Part shown: positions 28,770-29,749 of the stretch, piece after piece
Layout of the letters: each line of letters begins with the position of its first letter
Position numbering within the stretch: position 1 is the stretch's first letter
Position numbers and translations under genes: made by a program
Source: Bacteroidota bacterium
GTDB taxonomy: Bacteria > Bacteroidota > Bacteroidia > JABEUT01
Direction of reading: 5' to 3'
Assembly (NCBI GenBank): GCA_013288345.1
Contig: JABDCA010000004.1
Coordinates: 1-64,000, forward strand
Length of the DNA stretch: 64,000 nucleotides
Notes under the pieces: generated by a model
Seen by the model: the letters and a program-made list of their open reading frames with translations, nothing else
What the model was told of the DNA's origin: nothing
Databases searched by the model: none

Positions 28770-28856
28770 GGAGAGTTGTCCGAGTGGCTTAAGGAGCACG
28801 CCTGGAAAGCGTGTGTACTCGAAAGGGTCCCGAGGGTTCGAATCCCCCACTCTCCG
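28770..28856 (+). tRNA. tRNA-Ser(GGA)
   Basis: 87 nt with the acceptor stem GGAGAGT/ACTCTCC, an anticodon stem CACGC/GCGTG with loop CTGGAAA (anticodon GGA, reading UCC and UCU), a long variable arm as expected for a class II tRNA, and the T-loop GGTTCGAATCC. The CCA end is not encoded (GCAA follows the stem). Its last 16 nt plus one more are repeated at 29001-29017. Confidence 0.97.
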
Positions 28857-29017
28857 CAAATAAAAAAGCAACCCCACATTTGTGGGGTTTGTCTTTTATG
28901 AGAGAAAGAAGAAAACTTGTTTTCGAAATGAAACGAATAAAAGACAAAAACCGATAGGTTGCTTTTTTATTTAAGCCACCTAAAAGAGATCACCGCAGGT
29001 AATCCCCCACTCTCCGC
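28841..29017. repeat. 17-bp direct repeat of the tRNA-Ser 3' end framing a palindromic element
   Basis: AATCCCCCACTCTCCGC occurs at 28841-28857 (T arm and acceptor 3' strand of the tRNA) and again exactly at 29001-29017, 160 bp downstream. This is the arrangement left by site-specific integration at a tRNA gene (attL/attR). The interval contains only the nested palindrome at 28858-28972 and no gene. Confidence 0.85.
28858..28972. repeat. Nested palindromic element behind tRNA-Ser
   Basis: Perfect 16-bp outer arms: AAATAAAAAAGCAACC (28858-28873) and GGTTGCTTTTTTATTT (28957-28972). Inside: hairpin CCCCAC-ATTT-GTGGGG (28872-28887), which also serves as a plausible tRNA terminator; 12-bp arms TTTGTCTTTTAT (28888-28899) and ATAAAAGACAAA (28937-28948); and a central GAAAACTTGTTTTC (28911-28924). 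No reading frame of note. The rest of the 440-bp gap to 29155 shows nothing that I recognise. Confidence 0.8.
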
Positions 29018-29155
29018 CTTCGGTCGTCATATCGATCATACTTTGCCAATTTATTATGGTTCATTATATGAAATTTTTATGCGTTCGACTAAAATCTTAA
29101 ATAAAGGAACATATTGAATATTATCTTAGTGCCACTAAAGCTATAACTAAACATC

Positions 29156-29749
29156 ATGAGAAAAATAATTGTCCTAACATTTATAACATTAGACGGTGTA
29201 ATGCAAGCACCCGGTGGGCCTGGGGAAGACACATCAGGCGGATTCAAATATGGTGGTTGGAGTGCTCCGTATGGTGGTGAAGTTGGTGGTAAGATCATGC
29301 AAAAGCAGATGAAACCAGCAGATATGCTTTTGGGCAGAAAAACATTTGAGATCTTTGCCGGCTACTGGCCTGAACATGCGGATTATTGGCCCGGTATCAA
29401 TGATGTCAAAAAATATGTCCTGTCAAAGACCATGAAAAAGTCTGATTGGAAAAACTCTGTTTTCCTAAAAAGCCTGGCAGATATAAAAAAACTAAGGAAC
29501 TCAAAAGGCTCTGAAATTAAAGTTTGGGGCAGCGGTGAGTTAACGCAGTTGCTCCTTAAGAATGACCTGGTAGACGAACTTTGGCTCAAAATTTACCCGG
29601 TGACTCTTGGAAAAGGGAAAAAATTGTTTGACAAGGGCACTATTCCGGCAGCATTTACATTAACAGAGAGTACAGTTACACCCAATGGTGTGATTTTTGT
29701 CAATTACAGGCGGGCCGGAAAAGTGAAGACAGGTACTATGGGAGCTTGA
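29156..29749 (+). CDS. Dihydrofolate reductase-family (RibD C-terminal domain) protein, copy 1
   Basis: 197 residues of the YyaP/YwjB group: MRKIIVLTFITLDGVMQAPGG at the N-terminus, LLGRKTFEIFAGYWP, and ELWLKIYPVTLGKGKKLF near the C-terminus follow the family. It has the NADPH-binding DHFR-like fold, but this group does not normally replace FolA or RibD and the substrate is unknown. Its paralogue follows 52 bp later. Proteins of this kind often sit near YCII/ECF42 genes, as here. Confidence 0.88.
   Translation: MRKIIVLTFITLDGVMQAPGGPGEDTSGGFKYGGWSAPYGGEVGGKIMQKQMKPADMLLGRKTFEIFAGYWPEHADYWPGINDVKKYVLSKTMKKSDWKNSVFLKSLADIKKLRNSKGSEIKVWGSGELTQLLLKNDLVDELWLKIYPVTLGKGKKLFDKGTIPAAFTLTESTVTPNGVIFVNYRRAGKVKTGTMGA

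Follow-up and report, generated by a model that had tools for sequence, protein, structure and literature searches.

The window, a stretch of 64,000 nucleotides of a Bacteroidota genome (G000), carries on its forward strand a gene for tRNA-Ser with the anticodon GGA (28770–28857; ARAGORN; Rfam tRNA, 48.9 bits). Its final 17 nucleotides (28841–28857, tRNA nt 58–74) begin in the second half of the T-loop and run to the base that follows the discriminator, and direct-repeat comparison revealed an exact second copy of this 17-mer, AATCCCCCACTCTCCGC, at 29001–29017 on the same strand. No further match with two or fewer mismatches is present in the 64 kb; 0.01 would be expected by chance. The element between the gene and the copy begins at 28858 with the 5′ arm (28858–28873) of an outer stem, P1, which is 100% complementary to the 3′ arm at 28957–28972. 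According to sequence and MFE fold, there follow a terminator-like hairpin with a T-rich run behind it (P2, CCCCAC-ATTT-GTGGGG, 28871–28888), a long stem (P3, 28889–28947, in which 28889–28899 pair with 28937–28947) with the apical hairpin GAAAA-CTTG-TTTTC (28911–28924), and a small hairpin that closes a three-armed junction (P4, 28949–28960). The linker AAGCCACCTAAAA (28973–28985), which two family alignments identify as the C-rich linker of the family described below, leads to a conserved terminal hairpin, P5 (GAGATCACCGCAGGTAATCCC, 28986–29006), whose 3′-terminal six bases also open the downstream 17-mer. All of these features lie on the forward strand, as does CTTCGGTCGTCATATCGATC (29018–29037), which is what the window retains, in decayed form, of the beginning of another short palindromic repeat. 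This second repeat (CTTCGGTCGCCATAGCGACC, in many cases continued by TTCGGCGGAC...GTCCGC) is found directly 3′ of tRNA-Ser in several element-free relatives (L020, L025, L026, L028, L021, L051 and L263). A coding frame at 29159–29500, dihydrofolate-reductase-like by eye, starts about 140 bp beyond the tRNA-end copy.

An earlier note on this DNA had pointed out the exact 17-bp repeat of the tRNA 3′ end, the 16-bp outer arms (28858–28873 and 28957–28972), the 12-bp inner arms (28888–28899 and 28937–28948) and the lack of a gene in the unit. All of this is indeed found at the locus; P5 had been overlooked. As RNA, the window element folds with −41.3 kcal/mol (z = −5.1), a value that none of 200 shuffles equals.

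A whole-genome search revealed that all four tRNA-Ser genes found in the source genome of the window (GGA, TGA, GCT and CGA) bear an element of the same plan, and each element terminates in P5 and a copy of the end of its own tRNA, with a 2-nt deletion at TGA and one mismatch at GCT. The bodies of the GGA and TGA elements are 90% alike, partial second units lie behind the first at GCT and CGA, and the P5 motif matches four times in this genome, always at a tRNA-Ser gene.

Scanning 84,980 genomes with the P5 pattern GRGATCAYYGVARRTAATCCC gave at least 110 P5 stretches, nearly all from Bacteroidota, compared to about 11 expected by chance according to our own estimate. Most of the listed stretches lie about 130–155 nt behind a tRNA gene. 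Matches outside the Bacteroidota whose flanks were read look like chance matches in coding sequence, except for one in a Chlorobiota MAG (L090). A rescan of 35 carrier genomes together with a class-wide sample, using a search pattern that selected for an intact P5, yielded 90 tRNA-linked elements, 79 at tRNA-Ser and the others at tRNAs for Val, Arg, Pro, Leu, Lys and Phe; one further element lies behind a probable tmRNA end (L130). The earlier note had considered that the palindrome might turn up at many loci unrelated to tRNA. In its complete form, the motif followed a tRNA or the remnant of one, apart from chance matches in coding sequence and remnants a few kb downstream. Within the class, the pattern is present in 13 of 246 genomes, several of which have only chance matches in coding sequence; such a patchy distribution is as for a mobile element. 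Carriers include uncultured as well as cultured Bacteroidota, among them Chryseolinea serpens, in which the isolate DSM 24574 has five P5 matches (at Ser, Lys and other sites). Clustering of the neighbouring genes gave nothing but chromosomal genes that are conserved beside tRNA-Ser, for example tatD- and ansA-like ones (names judged from sequence). A literature search revealed no description of the family, Rfam 15 is without such elements, and Rfam scans of elements and loci gave only tRNA, chance matches and, in other parts of the loci, two riboswitches. The family is real, widespread and previously unlisted, and its fixed entry point is the 3′ end of tRNAs.

Family members are small (about 140–165 nt) and gene-free. 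They have a common anatomy in which P1 encloses the terminator-like P2, the long P3 and P4, followed by the linker and by P5 (GGGATCAYYGNARRTAATCCC), whose last bases are the start of the copy of tRNA nt 58–74. Nearly all relatives have P2, the apical loop of P3 most often reads CTTG, and in 79 of 89 elements the first 25 nt pair with the 45 nt preceding P5 to form P1. The sequences diverge widely but the fold is kept, with a median z of −6.6 (89 elements). Of the 41 pairs in a Bacteroidales group that could be aligned, 17 show double compensatory changes, and the inner YY/RR pairs of P5 covary in an alignment of 44 sequences. A covariance model of these 44 elements was based on a poor MAFFT alignment with only 10 pairs and was replaced by smaller alignable groups.

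The fold also reveals which strand is under selection. When G·T pairs were forbidden in folding and single mismatches inside helices were counted per strand, the tRNA-sense strand had 48 G·T versus 10 A·C mismatches (18 versus 1 in 26 non-redundant elements), and folding of the opposite strand gave the mirror-image counts. Since such a bias is not expected of inverted repeats that act only as double strands, the selected form is the tRNA-sense single strand. RNA is the simplest choice for it; an excess of G·T over A·C also suits single-stranded DNA.

Insertion is demonstrated at an orthologous empty site, the tRNA-Ser(TGA) locus of the source genome and of a relative (G005), where the proteins of the upstream peptidase gene are 84.5% identical. 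In G005 the element is absent and the terminator GGCTACAGA...TCTGTAGCC is directly behind the tRNA; in the source genome the same terminator is placed beyond the element and the copy. The flank behind the copy and the sequence behind the G005 tRNA are identical in 52 of 75 positions with a score of 25, compared to a maximum of 9 in 500 shuffles, none of which was as good. This is one strong empty site, not many. The extra downstream 17-mer, which the earlier note had thought might persist in relatives without the element, is absent from the element-free relative. Of the seven species compared at the orthologous uvrC/tRNA-Ser(CGA) locus, two have an element (G000 and G010; none in G009, G001, G002, G006 and G007), and these two elements are strongly different. 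For the window's own locus, an empty site in G006 is only suggestive: the sequence that follows the copy is directly behind the G006 tRNA, but it is that of the other repeat family and upstream synteny is missing.

The copies behind the elements follow the resident tRNA. Of 89 elements, 21 have an exact 17-nt copy of the tRNA end. When the 25 long copies were compared with 32 distinct tRNA ends, 23 were closest to the end of their own tRNA. In most elements the full copy is missing and agreement mostly stops after AATCC(C). The family spreads within genomes, as the 15 most similar element pairs are mostly from one genome and nearly always from different tRNA genes, a similarity to which gene conversion between tRNA-Ser loci could contribute. 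In one genome (G129), four units in the order A, A, B, A are stacked behind a single tRNA-Ser with tRNA-end copies between them, and the third unit is unrelated in sequence to the other three; synteny with a congener is broken there. The empty site, the copies of the own tRNA, the pairs within genomes and this stack together fit insertions that duplicate the target and have stacked repeatedly; they do not fit tandem duplication alone.

In stacks, downstream units are often truncated at the 5′ end, commonly at the apical hairpin of P3, and joined straight to the AATCCC of the preceding unit; at one locus (L228) a 5′-truncated copy lies directly behind a tRNA remnant. Such truncations look like the products of a reverse transcriptase that stops early and jumps between templates, but hairpin slippage would give similar joints. 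Tandem arrays of four to seven truncated units with a period of 90–116 bp, each unit extending from the P3 apical hairpin, or from close to it, to P5, were seen behind tRNA-Ser or tRNA-Leu at L080, L243, L098, L220 and L178. Truncated or decayed copies are also found 2–16 kb downstream of an element-bearing tRNA (L233, at G281:C19:25527, L226, L252 and L266), as if displaced by later insertions.

P5 is fitted to its target. Where the tRNA end reads AATCC-C (Ser, Lys, Val, Phe), the element's arm of P5 is GGGAT; with AATCC-T (three Pro elements) it is AGGAT and with AATCC-A (two Leu elements) TGGAT. Since the outer base follows the tRNA, the GGAT(N) arm of the element pairs with the tRNA-derived (N′)ATCC arm. 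This pairing either helps to choose the target or is restored after insertion.

Taken together, the window unit is best explained, and in our judgement probably so, as one copy of a new family of gene-free, non-autonomous mobile elements that target tRNA ends. A minimal non-autonomous element mobilised in trans was one of the readings offered in the earlier note, and it proved to be the right branch, given that all four tRNA-Ser genes are occupied, that an orthologous empty site exists and that relatives occur throughout the Bacteroidota. The elements insert directly behind tRNA nt 74 and leave the 17-nt duplication of nt 58–74 on their far side. In the proposed model, they would move as the tRNA-sense single strand with P5 as its 3′ end; the simplest candidate is a read-through RNA that starts at the tRNA promoter. 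The GGAT(N) arm would pair with (N′)ATCC in the T-stem of the tRNA, and the strand would be integrated at the end of the tRNA, with a staggered duplication of 17 nt, by an enzyme acting in trans. Downstream units that are truncated but keep P5 would be incomplete copies. P2 may re-terminate the tRNA transcript, and insertion would therefore be harmless to the host.

RNA is a plausible, though so far hypothetical, intermediate. It is tempting to speculate that the family is a bacterial, SINE-like retroelement whose read-through RNA picks a tRNA by P5–T-stem pairing and is reverse transcribed in trans into the 3′ end with a 17-nt duplication, but this specific scheme is offered tentatively, as a possibility only. 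Reverse transcriptases of the RVT_1 type are encoded in 15 of 37 carriers as against 11 of 43 non-carriers; none was detected in the 100% complete genome with the stacked units (G129), to which the enzyme could still have been supplied transiently. In these genomes, the co-occurrence of RVT_1, Y1_Tnp and Cas1 with the elements indicates no mobiliser. With regard to the mechanism, we place RNA-templated insertion before accretion by a recombinase, and the latter before a route via single-stranded DNA.

It is unlikely, but deserves serious consideration, that a tyrosine recombinase, the mobiliser named in the earlier note, is at work. A circle of 160 bp with an attP core AATCC(C) would then recombine with the T-loop/T-stem of the tRNA, the stacks would arise by site-specific accretion, and a phage or conjugative element would provide the integrase. 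The stretch from the tRNA T-loop to the 3′ end is a classical identity block of integrases, the stacked units have 17-bp tRNA-end copies between them, and integrase-bearing elements do use the same tRNA-Ser. However, none of the roughly 100 P5 ends that were read bounds a gene-bearing element, and no autonomous version was found among them; this also leaves the scar of an integrative element, another suggestion of the earlier note, unsupported, and we reject it. A scan of viral contigs gave chance matches and one true element, which is at the end of an integrated island. On this contig (L293, IMGVR_UViG_3300025298_000065) a 587-aa protein resembling phage-type integrases is encoded beside the 3′ half of a tRNA-Ser, followed by the full element. 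Apparently, an island whose att end is seen here had integrated into the anticodon/variable region and displaced the small element together with the tRNA 3′ half. The same probably explains elements beside tRNA remnants elsewhere (L066, L069, L086, L137, L229 and L236), and it follows that true islands use another crossover than the small elements. At three loci in genus relatives (L048, L049 and L022), tRNA-Ser is followed by TGAAAGGGACT...AAAAAGGGG and the apparent end of a coding frame; these sequences are probably the ends of other elements integrated at the same tRNAs. Further points against a tyrosine recombinase come from the elements themselves. Exchange at AATCC would transfer the acceptor strand as well and create mismatches in other isoacceptors, but all seven acceptor pairs form in 78 of 89 cases and near-identical bodies are found at tRNAs with different ends. 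In addition, P5 and the T-arm differ in arm spacing, and the G·T pairs are strand-biased.

More doubtful is a structured RNA in the tRNA-Ser precursor that serves the host, as in the case of the rtT RNA of E. coli, inherited vertically and made uniform by gene conversion, with the tRNA-end copy being incidental or a processing decoy. The strong covariation and the likeness of P2 to a tRNA terminator would fit, as would the retention of P5 where the 17-nt copy is lost, although here the search pattern selected for an intact P5. On the other hand, presence is patchy, the element is absent from most orthologous loci in the genus and from the empty tRNA-Ser(TGA) site, such elements are found at seven tRNA families as well as at a probable tmRNA, and one stack behind a single tRNA contains unlike units.

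We regard as equally doubtful an element that moves as single-stranded DNA with hairpin ends, by means of an HUH/Y1 transposase as in REP/RAYT systems. Hairpins with a conserved mismatch and a strand-specific structure would be expected of it, C-GNA-G loops are very stable in DNA, and Y1 transposases are found in 33 of 37 carriers, but also in 33 of 43 non-carriers. In the source genome, P5 is confined to the four tRNA-Ser genes, and the Y1 genes are on other contigs. To our knowledge, the IS200/IS605 mechanism yields no target duplication. An ordinary terminator with a chance 17-bp repeat, for which only the shape of P2 would speak, is refuted for practical purposes by the negligible chance expectation, by the same architecture in 90 elements and by copies that track the tRNA.

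The family behaves like a miniature non-autonomous transposon, and as in target-duplicating mobile elements in general, an empty orthologous site and a direct repeat of the target are found; every named family with which it was compared failed in at least one defining feature. The tyrT repeats of E. coli, from which the small rtT RNA is made, are directly behind a tRNA gene and contain the tRNA 3′ end, as do the elements described here. However, Rfam (RtT) does not match the latter, their fold is different, and they occur at many tRNA families with P5 fitted to each. Integron attC cassettes share the stacked units, the terminal hairpin and the fixed entry site, but here the entry site is a tRNA gene and the cassette gene is absent; by eye, 28858–29017 of the window is free of GTTRRRY and RYYYAAC cores. 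REP/REPIN sequences with RAYT and PATE/MITE-like miniature transposons are likewise short, palindromic, gene-free, patchy and moved in trans, whereas in the source genome P5 is not beside Y1 genes, the duplication is 17 nt and the target is fixed to tRNA ends. Casposons of family 2, which use Cas1 as integrase, insert at tRNA 3′ ends. The casposase of A. boonei makes a target duplication of 14–15 bp and needs the T-loop-like motif TCAAATC upstream (PMC6614799). In the family described here the duplication has 17 nt, no gene is carried and the right arm of the inverted repeat is not terminal; Cas1 is encoded in 14 of 37 carriers and absent from 23, including the complete G129. Islands and tycheposons that integrate at tRNA genes also stack at tRNA 3′ ends, but they carry integrases and replace the tRNA end. 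The structured tRNA-sense strand, the conserved 3′ end, the 5′-truncated copies and the long target duplication are reminiscent of eukaryotic SINEs and other non-autonomous retroelements; the family differs in being bacterial and in that its RNA intermediate is hypothetical, and no reverse transcriptase was identified for it by RVT_1.

Overall, the interpretation given in the earlier note is partly supported. The family accounts for enigmatic repeats and remnants of tRNAs at tRNA loci, which would otherwise be taken as scars of islands. Since Chryseolinea serpens and other carriers are in culture, both the transcript and the movement are open to direct test. If base pairing between P5 and the T-stem selects the target, the family would be a natural guided insertion system that acts at essential genes and is harmless to them.
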